DNA of 64,000 nt from Streptococcus sanguinis (GTDB lineage Bacteria; Bacillota; Bacilli; Lactobacillales; Streptococcaceae). The position numbers were made by a program, and so were the translations under genes. The notes under the pieces were generated by a model, which was not told the DNA's origin, searched no databases, and was given only the letters and a program-made list of their open reading frames with translations. How positions within the stretch are numbered: position 1 is the first letter of the stretch; each line of letters opens with the position of its first letter. The DNA lies in assembly GCF_900475275.1 (NCBI RefSeq), contig NZ_LS483364.1:1798001-1862000 (forward strand), given 5' to 3'. Shown here piece by piece: positions 23,041 to 38,620 of the stretch.

Positions 23041-23130
23041 AAAAAAGACGCTCAAAGCAATGCAAACAAACGGAGTTCATTTACATTCTTCAAGCGTCAT
23101 TGCTTTTTTCGACTGACATCATTGTTAGTC
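23041..23130 (-). promoter_or_regulatory. EutV dual-hairpin antitermination leader of eutA
   Basis: On the minus strand the first hairpin (23130-23111) has hexaloop AATGAT. The second (23105-23092) has stem AAGC/GCTT and hexaloop AATGAC. Both loops have A at position 1 and G at position 4, the ANTAR recognition pattern. A 15-base-pair terminator stem with one bulge (arms 23098-23084 and 23062-23047) followed by U-tract begins inside the second loop, so binding of EutV there would exclude the terminator. Confidence 0.85.
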
Positions 23131-23139
23131 TGGTAGTAT

Positions 23140-24575
23140 TTATTTTTTAAAACGAATGGTCGTTGTCGTCCCCTCACAGTCTGAGTGGATAGACAAGGTT
23201 CCAAACAACTTTCCTTGGACAAAACGCTCCACCAAGAGTAGACCCAGATGATTTTCAAAGGTGTGCTCTCGATTGTAACCGCTACCATTATCCAGTACTT
23301 TTAAAGTTATTATATCATTTTTAAATCCAACCTGCAAACGGATTTGCGGTTTTTCTGGATTTTTTTGTCCTTAAAAGCATGTTCATAGCTGTTCTGCAGT
23401 AATTCATTGACGATTAGCGCCAGTGAAGTGGCTCGGCTGCTGTCGAGACAGAGTTCCGGTTCCAGGCTGTAGGTCAGGGTTATTTCCCTATGCCCGGAAA
23501 AACAGCGCTGAACATTATCGATAACTCTCTTCAGCAGATGCTCAATCTGAATGCTGTCATCCTGCTGAGAAGACAGGAGTTCGTGGGTCGCCGCTATAGA
23601 GAGCACACGATTCATACTGTCATTAAGAGCTTTTTTGGTGTCTGCTCCTAAACTTTGCTGAGCCTGTAGTCGCAGCAAGGAAACAACGGTTTGCAAGTTA
23701 TTCTTTACCCGATGGTTCATTTCACGAATGGTAGTTGTATGGGTTAAGAGCTGCGCTTCCTTTTCCTTGATGTCTGTAATATCCTTACAGATCATGACCA
23801 CATTTTCACTTTCAGCCAGCAAATAGCGTTTGACCAAAAAGCAATATGTTCCATAATGTACCTCAACTTGGTGAGGTTTTTCTTGAGGGGCTTGCGGTCC
23901 CAGTTGCTGGATTTCTTCAAAAGTCAGACTGTCTAAGACCAGATTGCTGTAGTGCATTCCCTCAATCGAGTCCATATAGCCCAGCTTATGGCGATAAGAA
24001 TCGGCAGCTGCTTGATTGAAATACTTGAGATAGCCCTGCTGGTCAAAGACCAGACAAGCTTCGTCAATATGATCAAATAAAACAAACTGCTCTTGCGCTG
24101 AAATCTCAGGAGTGCTTCGCAACCCAAAACCGTCGTCCTCTTTATCCAAAGAAAAGTGGTCCGGTAAAGTCTGAGGAGCATTTTTTTCGATAATCAGCGT
24201 TCCGATGACGCGCTCTTCTCTCACTATCGGAAAGACCGTCTGGTGAATGGCTAAGCCCTCCTGCGATCTGGCCGAAAGCCCAATCGAGGGAGCGCCCGTC
24301 TCCAAGGTTCGGATAACACCTGGCTCATTTTCCAGATAAGCCATAGCACCTACGACCGAGTTTTCGTACAAGCTGAGCTTGCTTTCCGGTTTTTTGTGAA
24401 AGATGACAATGGCATGTTCCGAAAAGATATTCTTTACGTCAATGAAGACATCTTCATTAGCATAAGCTGAGTTTTTCAATAATTCGTCAGCCTGTTGGAC
24501 AAGATGCTCGATATCAGCCTCATCCAAATTTGTCTGTTCCCGACAAAGCTGCTTTATCTTATCTTTATACATCAT
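23140..24575 (-). CDS. eutW: Sensor histidine kinase EutW, interrupted by a frameshift
   Basis: Ethanolamine-sensing kinase that phosphorylates EutV. The N-terminal GAF/PAS-like sensor covers about residues 1-270. The HisKA_2-type H-box REMNHRVKNNLQ follows near residue 285, and the ATPase N-box is LIVNELLQNSYEHAF. The frame is then lost at a run of seven A (23366-23360): it reads on to a stop at 23310. The other frame continues from about 23360 with LDNGSGYNREH and GLLLVERF and ends at 23140. One extra A would give a normal 478-residue kinase. It overlaps the eutV stop by one base (TAATG). The break may be a sequence error, a true mutation, or slippage. Confidence 0.88.
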
Positions 24576-25150
24576 TACACATCATCTTGGAGCACCAGCA
24601 ATTTGGCAATCTCAATCATCGGCACTCTCTTTTGCATACTAATTGTCCGAATGCGCTTGAAAGCTTCTGGCTCTGACAAATGATCACGAGCCATCAGCAA
24701 GCCTTTAGCCTTTTCAATCACAATCCGATCGTCTATTTTTTTAGACAGTTTGACCATTTCATTGGACATCTGCTGAAGCTGGCGGCCCTTCTCAATGCAG
24801 ATCTCTACCATTGGAATCAAGGACTTGGCATCCAAAGGTTTAACCAAGTAAGCACTAATCCCATTGGTTTTAGCTTTTTGAACATAGTGTTCATCGCTGT
24901 AGGCTGACAGTAGAATCACACTGTAGGCTAAAGCGTCTTCGAGTATCTTTTTACCCGCTGTCAGGCCATCCAGAAGCGGAAGCTTGATGTCCATCATGAC
25001 CAAGTCACAACGATATTTCTGACACAAATCAATAGCCTCAAAGCCATCGGATGCCTCAGCCACCACTTCATAATCAGCTGCCTCTAATATATTTCGGATA
25101 TCTAATCTTACAATTGGATCATCATCAACAATTAGTATTCTGCCTTTCAT
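24575..25150 (-). CDS. eutV: Antiterminator response regulator EutV
   Basis: RNA-binding response regulator, 191 residues. The receiver domain has the acidic pocket VDDDP and phospho-acceptor Asp54 in LVMMDIKLP. The C-terminal ANTAR domain (about residues 125-185) is seen in MVKLSKKIDDRIVIEKAKGLLMARDHLSEPEAFKRIRTIS, here naming only its ends: it runs from the KKIDDR region to the IAKLLV region. When phosphorylated by EutW, such proteins bind paired hairpins in leader RNAs and prevent termination. It lies 24 bases after eutS and is translationally coupled to eutW. Confidence 0.95.
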   Translation of the reverse strand: MKGRILIVDDDPIVRLDIRNILEAADYEVVAEASDGFEAIDLCQKYRCDLVMMDIKLPLLDGLTAGKKILEDALAYSVILLSAYSDEHYVQKAKTNGISAYLVKPLDAKSLIPMVEICIEKGRQLQQMSNEMVKLSKKIDDRIVIEKAKGLLMARDHLSEPEAFKRIRTISMQKRVPMIEIAKLLVLQDDV

Positions 25151-25615: not shown

Positions 25616-26758
25616 TTAAAACGCTTTCTCTAATACTTTAAGCAGTTCTTCTGCCGTAGGGACGCGAGGGTTAGTCGGAGTACAGCCATCATGTAGAGCA
25701 GCTTCTGAAATTTCTACCTTGTACTGAGCAAAAGCATCTGCTTTCACACCATATTCTCTTAGAGAAGTTGGCATCTCCAGCTTTCTTTGCAGTTTCTTGA
25801 TGGCTTCAACCAGCTGTCTTACTCCTGATACAGGGCTTGAAGCACTGCATCCCAGTAGTTTGGCAATATCCTGATAGCGGCTTGCTACAGTCTTGTCTAT
25901 CGCCTGCCGGTTCCGGTTGTTGAATTCGATACCAGCATTATATTGAATGACATGGGGCATTAAAATACTGTTTAAACGACCATGAGGCACATGAAACTTA
26001 GCTCCTGCCGCATGTGCCAGACTGTGATTGATACCCAAAGAAGCTGTGTTAAAGGCCATACCAGCCAGAGTGGATGCTGCATGCATCTTTTCACGCGCTT
26101 CTACATCCTGACCATTTTTGTAGGCTTTAGGCAGGTATTCAAAGACCAGCTTGATTGCCTTTTCAGCCAAGGCATCAGAGAAGTCCGTAGCCTTGGTCGA
26201 TACATAAGCTTCAATGGCATGGGTCAGTACATCCATTCCAGTGTCAGCCGTGATGTTACCAGGAAGTGACAGAACCAAATCCGCATCTAAGATCGCAACA
26301 TCCGGAAGGATTTCTTTGGTCACTAAAGGATATTTGGTACCTCTCTCTGCATCCGTGATGACAGAAAAGGACGTTACTTCAGATCCAGTTCCGCTTGTCG
26401 TCGGAATGGCGATGAGAATGGCCTCTGAGAAAGCACCCTGTTTCTTGGCAAAATAATACATAGCCTTGGAAGCATCAATAGCAGAGCCGCCACCAATAGA
26501 AAGCACAATGCTGATTGGCTTGTCTCCTGCACTCTTGATACCAGCCACAACCGTTTCGATTGGCGGATCAGGCACAATATCCGTGAAAACAACAATATCA
26601 TTGCTGTCATCAAAGTTGGCTAAAATGGCATCCAACGTGCCAGATGTCTTCAAAAAAGGATCGGCAACGACTAGAATATGCTCGTTTTTATAATGGCTTA
26701 ATTGCTGCAGAGCGCCCTTGCCCACATGCAATTCAGTCTTATAGGAAATCTTATACAT
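25616..26758 (-). CDS. eutG: Iron-type alcohol dehydrogenase EutG
   Basis: Reduces acetaldehyde (or propionaldehyde) to the alcohol, regenerating NAD for EutE. The 380 residues have the NAD-binding [27 protein letters not shown], and the metal-ligand region HSLAHAAGAKFHVPHG with the expected histidines. No pduQ occurs in the window, so this enzyme probably serves both substrates. It is transcribed from its own promoter with a cre in the spacer and an EutV leader. Confidence 0.93.
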   Translation of the reverse strand: MYKISYKTELHVGKGALQQLSHYKNEHILVVADPFLKTSGTLDAILANFDDSNDIVVFTDIVPDPPIETVVAGIKSAGDKPISIVLSIGGGSAIDASKAMYYFAKKQGAFSEAILIAIPTTSGTGSEVTSFSVITDAERGTKYPLVTKEILPDVAILDADLVLSLPGNITADTGMDVLTHAIEAYVSTKATDFSDALAEKAIKLVFEYLPKAYKNGQDVEAREKMHAASTLAGMAFNTASLGINHSLAHAAGAKFHVPHGRLNSILMPHVIQYNAGIEFNNRNRQAIDKTVASRYQDIAKLLGCSASSPVSGVRQLVEAIKKLQRKLEMPTSLREYGVKADAFAQYKVEISEAALHDGCTPTNPRVPTAEELLKVLEKAF

Positions 26759-26791: not shown

Positions 26792-26889
26792 AAAAAGAAA
26801 CTATATGAAAATAAGACTGCTCTCCTACACACGTCACAGCATTTTCATATAGCTTCATTGCTTATTTATCTTCAGTACCCCTTTGTACT
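26792..26889 (-). promoter_or_regulatory. EutV dual-hairpin antitermination leader of eutG
   Basis: On the minus strand hairpin 1 (26889-26874) is AGTAC/GTACT around hexaloop AAAGGG. Hairpin 2 (26862-26851) is AGC/GCT around AATGAA. Both loops have A1 and G4. The terminator stem of 16 positions (26856-26841 with 26812-26797, ending in U5) begins within hairpin 2, so the two structures exclude each other. Confidence 0.88.
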
Positions 26890-26896
26890 ATATTGA

Positions 26897-26925
26897 ATTA
26901 TAACACAAAAGCGCTTTCATGGCAA
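26897..26925 (-). promoter_or_regulatory. eutG promoter with embedded cre site
   Basis: TTGCCA (26925-26920) and TATAAT (26902-26897) are separated by 17 bases on the minus strand. The spacer carries TGAAAGCGCTTTTG, a near-perfect CcpA cre, so carbon catabolite repression would block polymerase directly. Confidence 0.85.
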
Positions 26926-27026: not shown

Positions 27027-27055
27027 TTGTAATTCCCTGTGAAAGGTGTTACAAT
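27027..27055 (+). promoter_or_regulatory. Plus-strand promoter of the riboswitch RNA
   Basis: TTGTAA (27027-27032) and TACAAT (27050-27055) are 17 bases apart on the plus strand. The predicted start is near 27062, about 20 bases before the riboswitch core. Confidence 0.7.
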
Positions 27056-27061
27056 CTAGTT

Positions 27062-27396
27062 ACTAGGAAATTGATTTTAGTACTTTTAAGGATATGGAAG
27101 TCTGGTGCAAATCCAGCGCGGTCCCGCCACTGTGATAAGCTTTTCAGCTTTAAGTCAGGTCTTTATTCTTAAATTTTAGTAGATTTCATGCCTCGATGTA
27201 AGGTAGTGATGTCAGTTTGGAACAAACACTTTAGCTTAGTTTCCATTATTGACTCTACGTTTAAGTACGTTAATTTTCTAAAGATGAGATTTCACTTGTC
27301 TTTCTGCAAAGGAGCAGAGTCAATAATTGGAAAGCTAGTGCTAATCAACGAAGCTTAGCATAAAGATACAATGATGTATAGGCGGCTTTCTTTTTT
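27062..27396 (+). ncRNA. Stand-alone adenosylcobalamin riboswitch RNA with EutV-binding hairpins (EutX/Rli55-like)
   Basis: The cobalamin aptamer core (TCTGGTGCAAATCCAG, then CGGTCCCGCCACTGTGA, then AAGTCAGGTC) lies at about 27085-27173, closed by TTTAAG/CTTAAA. Downstream are TCTGC-AAAGGA-GCAGA (27303-27318) and ATAC-AATGAT-GTAT (27366-27379). Both are hexaloops with A1 and G4, as in the eut leaders. The end is a stem GGAAAGC region/GCTTTC (27330-27335 with 27385-27390) followed by six U. No plus-strand gene follows for 10 kb, so this is an independent small RNA opposite in direction to its neighbours. In Enterococcus and Listeria such RNAs sequester EutV when B12 is absent. Confidence 0.85.
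27240..27333 (+). promoter_or_regulatory. Long switch helix inside the riboswitch RNA
   Basis: Bases 27240-27256 pair with 27316-27333 over 17 base pairs with one bulged U (27327). The 3' arm overlaps the 3' half of the AAAGGA hairpin and the 5' arm of the terminal stem. The long helix and those hairpins are therefore alternatives. Confidence 0.7.
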
Positions 27397-27409
27397 AGAA
27401 GATTAAAAT

Positions 27410-27461
27410 AAGTTCTGTCCTTCCAAGACTCAGTAGGAGTCTATTTGGAAAGACAGAACTT
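27410..27461. terminator. Bidirectional terminator between the riboswitch RNA and pduO
   Basis: A three-part stem (27410-27419 with 27452-27461, 27421-27426 with 27445-27450, 27427-27431 with 27437-27441) is followed by U-run on the plus strand and a weaker one on the minus strand. It ends the pduO transcript and backs up the small-RNA terminator. Confidence 0.8.
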
Positions 27462-27477
27462 TTTCTGTTTCTTTTTG

Positions 27478-28077
27478 TCACTGGCGTTTGCTTGCCCAAC
27501 GCTCAACATCCGCCTTGGTGATATTGTGGAAGACCTTGGCACCTCTTTCATAGGCGATGTCTTCTTGGTTTTTAGTAAAGTTGATTACTCGAGCCAAGGC
27601 AAAGAAGTAATCTGATAAACGGTTGACAAAAATCAGGACATTATTGTTAATTTCTGTAGTCCACATGGCTCCTACGATATGACGCTCTGCCCGTCTTGCA
27701 ATGGTCCGAGCCACATGAATCATGGAAGCAATCTCGTCACCGCCTGGCAGGATAAATCTTTCCAGAGCTGGTGGAATTTCTGCGTAGGTATCAATCCTCT
27801 CCTCAATCCAGTCAATCAGCTGCTGATCGACCTTATAAGGGTAAACTCCCTTTGGTGTAGAGAGGTCTGAACCACAGTCAAAGAGATAATGCTGCAGCTG
27901 GAGCAACTCATCTCTCAGCTTATCATCCTTGTCCAGCTTGGTAATAGTATAACCAATCCAAGAGTTAAGCTCATCAATGGTTCCGTAAGCATTAACCCGT
28001 TCTGCATCCTTGGCGACACTTTGACCGCCAACTAGCTTGGTCAAGCCCTTGTCACCTGTTTTTGTATAGAGTTGCAT
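27478..28077 (-). CDS. pduO: PduO-type ATP:cob(I)alamin adenosyltransferase
   Basis: Transfers the adenosyl group of ATP to cob(I)alamin. The 199 residues start MQLYTKTGDKGLTKLVGGQ (ATP-binding motif). Family segments follow: VNAYGTIDELNSWIGY, QHYLFDCGSDLSTPKG, FILPGGDEIASMIHVARTIA and NVLIFVNRLSDYFFALARV. It is the last gene of the operon that starts with the phosphatase lipoprotein. A second, diverged copy lies at 58967-59542. The separate GlcG-like domain at 4873 may correspond to the C-terminal half of longer PduO proteins. Confidence 0.94.
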   Translation of the reverse strand: MQLYTKTGDKGLTKLVGGQSVAKDAERVNAYGTIDELNSWIGYTITKLDKDDKLRDELLQLQHYLFDCGSDLSTPKGVYPYKVDQQLIDWIEERIDTYAEIPPALERFILPGGDEIASMIHVARTIARRAERHIVGAMWTTEINNNVLIFVNRLSDYFFALARVINFTKNQEDIAYERGAKVFHNITKADVERWASKRQ

Positions 28078-31649: not shown

Positions 31650-32966
31650 CTATCTGCTTAGCTGGGCTTCCTTACTATCTAGTTTGATAGTTTCCCTGCC
31701 GTTGAGCAGTACACCTTTATTTTCATCGCGGCCTTGCAGGTAGTAAAGTGCATCTTCCTGGCCATAAGTTTCAATTGCCTTAGTTTGCAAAAGACCGATT
31801 CCCTTGCTAGGATCTCTCAAGAGATTAAAGATGATCCCCATTTGCAGTTTAGGGAAGTCCTTGAGCATAGCATAGTCGCCATTACTGTCACCGGCAATCA
31901 GGATTGGTTCTTGATTGTCATGATTGACAGCAATCAGTTTCTTAATAGTCTCTGTCTTGCCCTCACCCTGAGTCTGAGCATAGTTGGTATCGTATTCCGG
32001 CCGAATCACACCCTTATCATCCTTTTTCAGGCGCATACCAGTAACATTTTCTTTAGGAATATTGTAGCCATACTTAGAATTGCTAGCATAAGGGATAATC
32101 ACATCGATATAAGACGCTGAGCAGATATAGACATCAATGCCGTTAGCCATCAGAGTCTTGTAGAGATTTTGCATTTCCTTGACCGAGCGAACACCGCGCT
32201 TGAAGGTCACAGTGATTTGGCCTGACTCACCTTTCAAGCCTTCTGGACTTTCCCAAGTTTCAGAAGTCAGCTTGTCTTGGAGAGCTTGGTCAATAGACTT
32301 TTCAGATAGAGCTTGAACTTCTTCAGAAGTCATACCTGCATAGAGGTAGGTCACCCATGGATAGCTGATGTCAGAGCTGAAGGTGTCACCAATCGCTTCG
32401 TAAAGATAGCGGAGTTTAGCAGCAAAGTCTTGGTATTCATCGGTCTTTTTGACTTCTTCCAGAGACTTGTCTCCTTGCATTCCCTTATAGCTATTGTAAA
32501 TAACCGTGTAGTCAGAAAGCAGGTCAGCCGCAATCTTGTCAATGTTCACTGGTTCACCATCTTTGTTATGGAAATCTTCAACAAAATCGTCGCTCGGTAT
32601 ATTGGTCCGCACTGCTTGGTCAAATTCTTCCGGCGTCATCTTAAAGGCCAGATTTTCAATTTGATAGGTAAAGGTTGCTTCGCCAATGTCGTTGATGACT
32701 GTCGTATTGTCCCAGTCAAAGACGGCATAAGGTTTTTTATTTTTATCATAGCTAGAGCTGGTGTTCCCATTCTCCTTGATGAGCTTAGTCAGGCGGGCAT
32801 AAAGCTTGTCTTCCCAGACGCCCTTATCCAAAGTCTTAGCCTTGTCCTTATCCGTTGTCTCTGTCTTAGCCGAGGATGACTCCGTTGTCGTCTTATTCTT
32901 CCCCGCTTGACAAGCTCCCAGAAGCAAAGCCAAACTACAAAGCAGCACAATTCCTTTTGTCCGCAT
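31650..32966 (-). CDS. Surface HAD-family phosphatase lipoprotein, PchP-like
   Basis: A lipoprotein signal (MRTKGIVLLCSLALLLGAC, Cys19) puts this 438-residue protein on the outer face of the membrane. HAD motif I is FDWDNTT (residues 83-89), motif II is in VYICSAS, and motif IV is IAGDSNGDYAML. DxDNTT resembles motif I of Pseudomonas phosphorylcholine phosphatase PchP, which also acts on phosphoethanolamine. The start 32966 has GGAGGA upstream; the longer in-frame version reads through the leader RNA. It heads the eutP-cobD-pduX-cobT-pduO operon behind a consensus promoter, a cre and an EutV-type leader. Release of ethanolamine outside the cell is a plausible role, but unproven. Confidence 0.8.
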   Translation of the reverse strand: MRTKGIVLLCSLALLLGACQAGKNKTTTESSSAKTETTDKDKAKTLDKGVWEDKLYARLTKLIKENGNTSSSYDKNKKPYAVFDWDNTTVINDIGEATFTYQIENLAFKMTPEEFDQAVRTNIPSDDFVEDFHNKDGEPVNIDKIAADLLSDYTVIYNSYKGMQGDKSLEEVKKTDEYQDFAAKLRYLYEAIGDTFSSDISYPWVTYLYAGMTSEEVQALSEKSIDQALQDKLTSETWESPEGLKGESGQITVTFKRGVRSVKEMQNLYKTLMANGIDVYICSASYIDVIIPYASNSKYGYNIPKENVTGMRLKKDDKGVIRPEYDTNYAQTQGEGKTETIKKLIAVNHDNQEPILIAGDSNGDYAMLKDFPKLQMGIIFNLLRDPSKGIGLLQTKAIETYGQEDALYYLQGRDENKGVLLNGRETIKLDSKEAQLSR

Positions 32967-32999
32967 AGAAACAATCCTCCATAAAAAATAATAGTGCGC

Positions 33000-33076
33000 A
33001 AAAAAATGGCATAGAAAACCCCTTTGATTCTGAAACACTCGCTTCATTGCGATCAAATCAGGCTTCCTTGCCATTT
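33000..33076 (-). promoter_or_regulatory. Putative EutV dual-hairpin leader of the phosphatase-eutP operon
   Basis: On the minus strand GGC-AAGGAA-GCC (33072-33061) and TCGC-AATGAA-GCGA (33052-33039) are hexaloops with A1 and G4, 8 bases apart. A terminator pairing AAATGGCA (33076-33069) with TGCCATTT (33011-33004) and ending in seven U includes the first arm of hairpin 1, so the two exclude each other. The enclosed loop is long (57 bases), which lowers confidence. Confidence 0.65.
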
Positions 33077-33092
33077 TCTATACTGTTATTAT

Positions 33093-33136
33093 ATTATAAA
33101 CTATCTGGCAGACTTTGTCAATGAAGCGCTTTCAGA
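33093..33136 (-). promoter_or_regulatory. Consensus promoter with upstream cre for the phosphatase-eutP operon
   Basis: TTGACA (33121-33116) and TATAAT (33098-33093) are 17 bases apart, a perfect vegetative promoter. Directly upstream and touching the -35 is TGAAAGCGCTTCA (about 33134-33122), a CcpA cre-like site. Confidence 0.85.
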
Positions 33137-37477: not shown

Positions 37478-38620
37478 ATGAACATCAAAGAAGAAATTAT
37501 TAACTTAGCAAAAGACATTGGGATTTCTAAGATTGGCTTTACAACAGCGGATGATTTTGACTATCTGGAGAAGTCGCTGCGCTTGGCTGTAGAAGAAGGA
37601 CGAAATTCTGGATTTGAGCATAAAAGCATCGAGGAGCGGATCAAGCCCAAGCTCAGTCTAGCCTCGGCCAAGACCATTATCTCTATCGCAGTCGCCTACC
37701 CCCACAAGCTCAAGCAGCAACCTCAGAAAACGGCCTACAAGCGAGGGAAATTCACCCCTAATAGCTGGGGGCTGGACTACCACTATGTCCTGCAGGACAA
37801 GCTGGACCGGCTTGCCAAGGGAATTGAGGAACTGACCGCTGATTTTGAGTACAAGGGCATGGTGGACACAGGTGCCTTGGTTGATACCGCCGTAGCTCAA
37901 AGAGCAGGAATCGGCTTTATCGGGAAGAACGGCTTGGTCATCTCCAAGGAATTTGGCTCCTATATGTTTTTGGGAGAGCTCATCACCAATCTGGACATCG
38001 AGCCTGATCAGCCCGTCGACTACGGCTGCGGAGACTGCAACCGCTGTGTGACAGCCTGCCCCACTTCCTGCCTGATTGGTGACGGCAGCATGAATGCCAA
38101 GCGCTGTCTATCCTTTCAGACTCAGGACAAGGGCGTCATGGATCTGGAATTTCGCAAGAAGATTAAAACGGTCATCTATGGCTGCGATATCTGCCAAATC
38201 TGCTGCCCTTACAATAAAGGCTTGGATAATCCGCTCGCAACAGAGATTGATCCCGACCTTTCTCATCCCGAGCTCCTGCCTTTCTTGGAGCTTTCCAACG
38301 GTCAGTTTAAGGAGAAATTCGGTCATGTAGCCGGCAGCTGGCGGGGAAAAAACATCCTGCAGCGCAATGCCATTATCGCTCTGGCAAATGCCAATGATCG
38401 CTCTGCCATTCCCAAAATGCTGGAAATTATCGACAAGGGGCAAAATCCGATTCATGTCACTACAGCTATCTGGGCTCTGCGTCAGCTGGTGCGTGAGGTC
38501 CATCCAGAAATGATAGAACTGGTCATGAACGTCAAAAATCCAACGCCGCAAATCCAAGAAGAGCAAGGCCGTTTCCTAAAGAAATTTGGCCTAGAAGAAA
38601 AAATTGTGATAGAAAACTAA
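37478..38620 (+). CDS. queG: Epoxyqueuosine reductase QueG
   Basis: Carries out the last step of queuosine synthesis in tRNA. The 380-residue protein shows two [4Fe-4S] clusters of ferredoxin type: CGDCNRCVTACPTSC (about residues 185-200) and CDICQICCPYN (about 238-248). A C-terminal HEAT-like part follows. Queuosine synthesis enzymes of this type also bind cobalamin, which makes its closeness to the B12 genes interesting but possibly accidental. It is the only protein gene on the plus strand. Confidence 0.93.
   Translation: MNIKEEIINLAKDIGISKIGFTTADDFDYLEKSLRLAVEEGRNSGFEHKSIEERIKPKLSLASAKTIISIAVAYPHKLKQQPQKTAYKRGKFTPNSWGLDYHYVLQDKLDRLAKGIEELTADFEYKGMVDTGALVDTAVAQRAGIGFIGKNGLVISKEFGSYMFLGELITNLDIEPDQPVDYGCGDCNRCVTACPTSCLIGDGSMNAKRCLSFQTQDKGVMDLEFRKKIKTVIYGCDICQICCPYNKGLDNPLATEIDPDLSHPELLPFLELSNGQFKEKFGHVAGSWRGKNILQRNAIIALANANDRSAIPKMLEIIDKGQNPIHVTTAIWALRQLVREVHPEMIELVMNVKNPTPQIQEEQGRFLKKFGLEEKIVIEN

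Follow-up and report, generated by a model that had tools for sequence, protein, structure and literature searches.

The window, a 64,000-nucleotide stretch of Streptococcus sanguinis DNA (contig NZ_LS483364.1), contains a eut locus on the minus strand, in which an iron alcohol dehydrogenase gene in the eutG position is followed by eutS, eutV, eutW, eutA, eutB and eutC. The EutV encoded here is 100% identical to the EutV of S. sanguinis strains KO16 and BCC04. The neighbouring annotated genes all lie on the same strand, and the stretch between the eutG-position gene and an adenosyltransferase gene carries on the plus strand an AdoCbl riboswitch aptamer, three hexaloop hairpins designated P0, P1 and P2, and an intrinsic terminator (Table 1).

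Table 1. Genes, RNA elements and likely EutV targets of the eut locus (window positions; hexaloops in square brackets)
Feature	Position	Strand	Evidence or remark
Likely EutV target before eutA: GACTAAC[AATGAT]GTCAGTC, 5 nt, AAGC[AATGAC]GCTT overlapping terminator	23092..23130	-	scan and fold
eutW, sensor histidine kinase	23310..24575	-	PF12282, PF07568
eutV, response regulator with ANTAR domain	24575..25150	-	PF00072, PF03861
Iron alcohol dehydrogenase gene, eutG position, divergent from the RNA	25616..26758	-	profile matches
Likely EutV target, eutG/alcohol dehydrogenase leader: TAGTAC[AAAGGG]GTACTG, 10 nt, AGC[AATGAA]GCT overlapping terminator	26851..26890	-	scan and fold
Sigma-70-like promoter TTGTAA-17-TACAAT with extended TGT	27027..27055	+	9/12 match
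AdoCbl riboswitch aptamer RF01482, last hairpin included	27069..27217	+	130.2 bits, E 7.1e-25, cut-off 50
Hairpin T, UGGAA/UUCCA, directly 3' of aptamer	27218..27245	+	paired in 91.8% of cells (22 sequences), without double change
Long-range stem UUAUUGACUCU/AGAGUCAAUAA around P0 and small hairpins	27246..27326	+	paired in 98.0% of cells over 9 counted pairs
P0, single hexaloop hairpin TTCTGC[AAAGGA]GCAGAG	27302..27319	+	hexaloop scan
Possible closing helix GAAAGC (27330-27335)/GCUUUC (27385-27390) around P1-P2	27330..27390	+	arms complementary in 22/22
P1, hexaloop hairpin GTGCTAATC[AACGAA]GCTTAGCAT	27338..27361	+	5' half of predicted dual EutV site
P2, hexaloop hairpin ATAC[AATGAT]GTAT	27366..27379	+	3' half of predicted dual EutV site
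Intrinsic terminator of the plus-strand RNA	27410..27466	+	stem 27410-27461, then U run
PduO-type cob(I)alamin adenosyltransferase gene, convergent with the RNA	27478..28077	-	TIGR00636, PF01923
Likely EutV target before eutP-cobD-cobT-adenosyltransferase genes: GGC[AAGGAA]GCC, 8 nt, TCGC[AATGAA]GCGA, then terminator	33039..33072	-	by eye and fold

A predicted plus-strand RNA among minus-strand eut genes

At the sequence level the RNA has a free-standing layout, with its own promoter-like site and terminator and no identified gene on the same RNA, and the parts listed by the sequence-only reading (promoter, cobalamin aptamer and terminator on the plus strand, with no plus-strand gene for 10 kb) were recovered. 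The aptamer exceeds the RF01482 cut-off and is the single copy in this genome, and the next identified plus-strand gene is queG at 37478, with other plus-strand ORFs in between. The promoter TTGTAA-17-TACAAT is present, but its match is near chance for the region, where 7 such matches were found and 4.6 expected (sd 2.3); from its position the RNA would be expected to start near 27062. A loose script placed a promoter-like site 22-24 nt 5' of the aptamer GTACTTTT box in all 22 distinct streptococcal sequences described below, with scores of 8-11/12 and the best hexamer pair off by one base in three of them.

The region 27409-27475 folds with -27.5 kcal/mol (z -5.75), and the 27410-27461 terminator was not listed by a simple terminator scan. 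Terminator-like sites were found downstream in 22/22 streptococcal sequences by a loose script, their sequence being unrelated outside S. sanguinis. The RNA and the adenosyltransferase gene converge on this terminator and may share it, and minus-strand readthrough past it would yield RNA antisense to the plus-strand RNA. A 56-codon plus-strand frame at 27188-27358 overlaps the RNA.

The same genome has EutV/EutW together with three leaders that carry dual hexaloops and are likely EutV targets; their folds gave z-scores of -4.6 (eutG), -4.9 (eutA) and -3.6 (eutP group). A stricter intergenic scan, with no mismatch allowed, did not recover the eutA-leader site, and the intergenic scan missed the site before the eutP group, which falls inside a called ORF (31650-33074, minus strand). 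The start of this ORF as called falls inside the EutV-type leader, and the ATG at 32966 (MRTKGIVLLCSLALLLGAC..., lipoprotein-like signal) is the likelier start; for the long form a HAD match was obtained that stays under the cut-off, and a Pfam search of the short form at E 0.001 found nothing. Sequences TGAAAGCGCTT that we take to be cre-like lie close to the eutG and eutP promoters, at 26906-26919 and 33121-33134 on the minus strand. The eut locus of S. sanguinis has been tied to CcpA regulation (PMC7674665).

Hexaloop hairpins and their conservation

By scan, the 190 nt that separate the aptamer from the terminator contain three hairpins whose hexaloop starts with A and has G as its fourth base (A1/G4), while 2000 dinucleotide shuffles of this region gave a mean of 0.2 and none reached 3. 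Two of them, P0 and P2, are the hairpins that the sequence-only reading had pointed out, P0 being its first loop, and the 47-base gap between them had been regarded as an odd spacing for a EutV site. This oddity disappears, as the stretch between P0 and P2, 46 nt by our coordinates, contains the third A1/G4 hexaloop hairpin P1, and the P1-P2 linker (27360-27365) measures 6 nt with the P1 core stem and 4 nt with the longest P1 stem. In the eut leaders of E. faecalis the linkers of dual hexaloops are reported to be 5-12 nt long (PMC3369931), which includes the 6-nt linker given by the core stem; a linker of 14 nt strongly cut induction in vivo, and 20 additional nucleotides abolished antitermination in vitro (PMC3369931, PMC8934654). 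We take P1-P2 as the dual EutV site and P0 as an extra single loop because the P1-P2 linker fits the reported range and longer linkers are reported to impair function. A dual site formed by P0 and P2 across the 47-nt gap was rejected on the same published data and because P1 intervenes. The predicted EutV site is not embedded in a terminator, P2 ending at 27379 and the terminator stem beginning at 27410. After the possible closing helix comes a U run, 27391-27396, which L019, L020, L022 and L023 do not have.

A DNA search of 284 Streptococcus genomes gave a match in 38, four of which (G128, G129, G132 and G170) have 22-nt matches only, outside the aptamer and the hexaloops. The region after the aptamer was cut from 29 loci (L002-L030; L031 was missed by the pattern and treated separately), and removal of 7 loci identical over the first 205 nt left 22 distinct sequences for alignment. 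The G4 of the loop is present in 22/22 for each of P0, P1 and P2, and A1 in 20/22, 22/22 and 19/22, respectively, the exceptions having G at position 1; 17 of the 22 sequences have A1 in all three loops. Six stem pairs of P1 are paired in 100% of cells and one pair shows 7 double changes, whereas the outermost pair of P2 is broken in 4/22. The P1 loop is closed by a C-G pair with one mismatch below it; in 21/22 sequences a C.C or U.C mismatch stands one step below the closing pair, and L021 has C-G there.

Further helices flank the hexaloops. The long-range stem has one pair with 9 double changes, and its inner end and the outer P0 pairs compete with each other. The 3' arm of hairpin T can alternatively lengthen the long-range stem, the extended form being favoured by RNAalifold, and the arm UUUCC that the two have in common would fit a switch. 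The possible closing helix shows one double change (L014) and one G-U in L019 and L020; its complementarity is partly by construction, as its 3' arm served to cut the sequences. A scan for conserved pairings between the aptamer and the downstream region, for which no background was computed, gave many U/A-rich candidates of 5-7 bp, e.g., 27159-27165 with 27279-27285, and none of them stood out.

Across the named helices 96.6% of cells are paired, compared with 29-41% when the partner is slid by 1-3 columns, and double-change cells number 20 against 6.8 in the shuffled alignments. None of 500 shuffles matched the observed paired cells, double-change cells or covariation score; two of the five covariation measures, pairs with a double change (218/500) and further pair types (371/500), were not above the shuffles. 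The covariation supports the helices without proving them, the sequences being related. Minimum-energy folds of single sequences did not form P1, gave only the two inner pairs of P0 and closed P2 with a 4-nt loop; the consensus fold of the 22 sequences forms P1, again with two pairs only in P0 and a 4-nt loop in P2. Because the folds do not produce them fully, the predicted hexaloop forms rest on conserved letters and on analogy with EutV sites.

The pattern of conservation bears on the possibility that the plus-strand RNA is mainly antisense to the adenosyltransferase gene or its terminator, as the convergence of the two units across 27410-27466 might lead one to suppose. What is conserved, however, is the aptamer and the hexaloops, while the terminator sequence differs outside S. 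sanguinis and the loci L025-L030 have no adenosyltransferase match within their 1.5-kb flanks. We therefore consider a mainly antisense function very improbable.

Occurrence with EutV and orientation of the aptamer

EutV (E up to 1e-40) was found in 34 of the 284 Streptococcus genomes and the aptamer in 34, one in each, and they are the same genomes; the two lists were matched by eye, and the filters of the aptamer search were stricter, with some weak matches lost. All three loops are present in 29 of these 34 genomes and the dual site in 32. In G030, G031 and G232 the dual site is kept and the P0 hexaloop is absent in a scan allowing A or G at position 1, G232 having G at position 1 of P1. 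In the corresponding loci (L031, L162 and L163, respectively) the P0 stem seems preserved with its loop swapped for others, and P1-P2 remain.

In 29 of the 34 genomes the aptamer lies opposite the eutV strand; it lies on the eutV strand in three (G031, at a distance of ~39 kb, G033 and G177) and on a separate contig in two (G030 and G260). For comparison with other genera, 80 named loci were fetched around EutV-like genes, and a strict aptamer pattern matched 52 of them. Among these the aptamer is opposite eutV in 16/16 Streptococcus loci, several being the same strains as in the 284-genome set, whereas it is on the eutV strand in 36/36 loci of other genera, including Listeria, Enterococcus, Paenibacillus, Vagococcus and Floricoccus, with L086 and L117 having no hexaloop in the scanned stretch and perhaps not being EutX. 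The other 28 loci had no strict-pattern match, and at least one of them (L109) does contain an aptamer, on the same strand. The reversal looks specific to Streptococcus because of this difference between 16/16 and 36/36, with the place beside eutG retained. The plasmid collection, searched as well, yielded no more than two Listeria records, which are chromosome-sized or large and are filed as plasmids.

The orientation had been singled out by the sequence-only reading as odd, which it is not: the reversed orientation of EutX in the S. sanguinis eut locus was already stated in a review citing Mellin et al. 2014 (PMC5821096), and most of the streptococcal genomes share it. The EutX described there is of the same species and orientation and very probably the same RNA; the passages of the review that concern it give the orientation and no anatomy. 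The window RNA belongs to the already known EutX, and the finding is less strange than it looked.

In the published EutX of E. faecalis, too, a dual hexaloop EutV site and an extra single G4 hexaloop come after an AdoCbl aptamer (PMC8934654), and its riboswitch lies upstream of eutG (PMC3369931), with EutV/EutW in the same locus. Unlike it, the S. sanguinis RNA runs against the eut genes, and compared with E. faecalis, known here from publications only, the streptococcal RNA has the P1 stem mismatch in 21/22 sequences, the possible GAAAGC/GCUUUC closing helix and no evident AdoCbl-dependent terminator. Inspection of Enterococcus loci by eye showed a single loop with G at position 1 in L087 and L095, GCAC[GAGGAA]GTGC and GCAC[GATGAT]GTGT, and with A1 in L088. 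The Rli55 of Listeria monocytogenes (L062) consists of the same kind of parts in the same locus, adjoining an alcohol dehydrogenase gene and eutV; it differs in lying on the eutV strand and in that a strong terminator comes immediately behind its aptamer.

Dual sites from other genera served to build a covariance model, starting with 31 sites, of which L083 and L094 were dropped as misregistered. The alignment of the remaining 29 put EutX and leader sites out of register, so that 15 EutX-type sites were kept and modelled. The best match of the model in the window is at P2 with E 0.25 and P1 misaligned, and the best match among the 15 other loci reached E 0.062, the motif being too short.

Control of a downstream gene in cis is the usual role of such aptamers, and the streptococcal set contains two genomes that could fit it. 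In G033 and G177 the aptamer precedes eutS by ~200 nt on the eutV strand, a search for a dual site found none, and EutV is 48% identical with one stop. In these loci (L164 and L165) the aptamer may act in cis and the EutV system may be decaying. In the window, the reading as an ordinary cis riboswitch for a plus-strand gene meets the queG distance of about 10 kb, a terminator that closes the RNA at 27466, conserved EutV-type hexaloops downstream of the aptamer and, among the identified genes, no coding region downstream on the same RNA. For the window RNA it is the least probable explanation that we considered.

A probable B12-controlled EutV sponge and its presumed AdoCbl-dependent step

We interpret the RNA as the S. 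sanguinis EutX/Rli55 sponge, in which an AdoCbl aptamer would control a predicted EutV-binding module made of P1-P2 and P0, and we assign this reading a probability of about 0.9 on the basis of sequence and analogy. The suggestion already made from the sequence, of a B12-controlled EutV sponge of the EutX/Rli55 type acting in trans, is supported by the anatomy, the synteny and the co-occurrence. The RNA is presumed to be transcribed, to bind EutV and to respond to AdoCbl in the same direction as its counterparts in E. faecalis and Listeria. At low AdoCbl, the full-length RNA would be made and would bind phosphorylated EutV, which would be kept from the three antitermination leaders, and the corresponding eut genes and the genes through adenosyltransferase would stay off. 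In the presence of AdoCbl the EutV-binding module would not be made or not presented, and EutV would be free. The presence of a EutV-type leader before the eutP, cobD, cobT and adenosyltransferase genes suggests a positive loop, in which EutV would raise the expression of genes aiding AdoCbl synthesis and AdoCbl would free EutV from the sponge.

How AdoCbl would switch the RNA off is less clear-cut than the identity of the parts. According to a review, E. faecalis and Listeria make a short RNA when AdoCbl is present, which stops where the aptamer does, the last aptamer hairpin being terminator-like (PMC5821096). When 24 chosen loci were scanned for terminators over the 145 nt that follow the aptamer core, strong terminator-like sites appeared in both Listeria loci (L062 and L084) and in 3/4 Paenibacillus loci (L089, L090 and L098), and none in the Paenibacillus locus L092 or in L085, L093 and L096. 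Enterococcus L087 and L088 have moderate sites and L095 none. In contrast to Listeria and most of the Paenibacillus loci, no strong terminator was found between the aptamer and P0 in 12/12 streptococcal sequences scanned; within the 145 nt, L002 (the window), L013, L014, L019, L022 and L163 have no terminator-like site, and L015, L016, L021, L024, L025 and L162 have weaker ones, the best in L025. The scan leaves termination possible, because the Enterococcus sites are also modest by the same scan.

Two options are left: the last aptamer hairpin or hairpin T may act as a weak terminator, or the full-length RNA may refold. An RNA that is EutX by origin could be made at full length and refolded by AdoCbl, hiding or exposing the hexaloops without early termination. 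The difference between the streptococcal and the Listeria and Paenibacillus loci and the UUUCC arm, common to hairpin T and the long-range stem, argue for it; the reported termination of E. faecalis at the last aptamer hairpin (PMC5821096) and the lack of an outstanding conserved pairing with the aptamer argue against it, and since one of the three Enterococcus loci gave no site and two only moderate ones, a missing call is poor evidence. We consider such refolding unlikely. Its more specific form, in which a constitutive full-length RNA would be refolded by AdoCbl via the arm of hairpin T and the long-range stem, with protein-binding competence as the output, is if anything less probable.

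Within the sponge reading, the absence of any strong B12-dependent terminator from the streptococcal sequences scanned is a testable question. The recognition of three loops removes the spacing puzzle and supports, on comparative grounds, the use of single hexaloops by EutV that was proposed in 2022. That the 34 genomes with the aptamer, out of 284, are also those with EutV shows how closely B12 sensing and the EutV system are associated in one genus.
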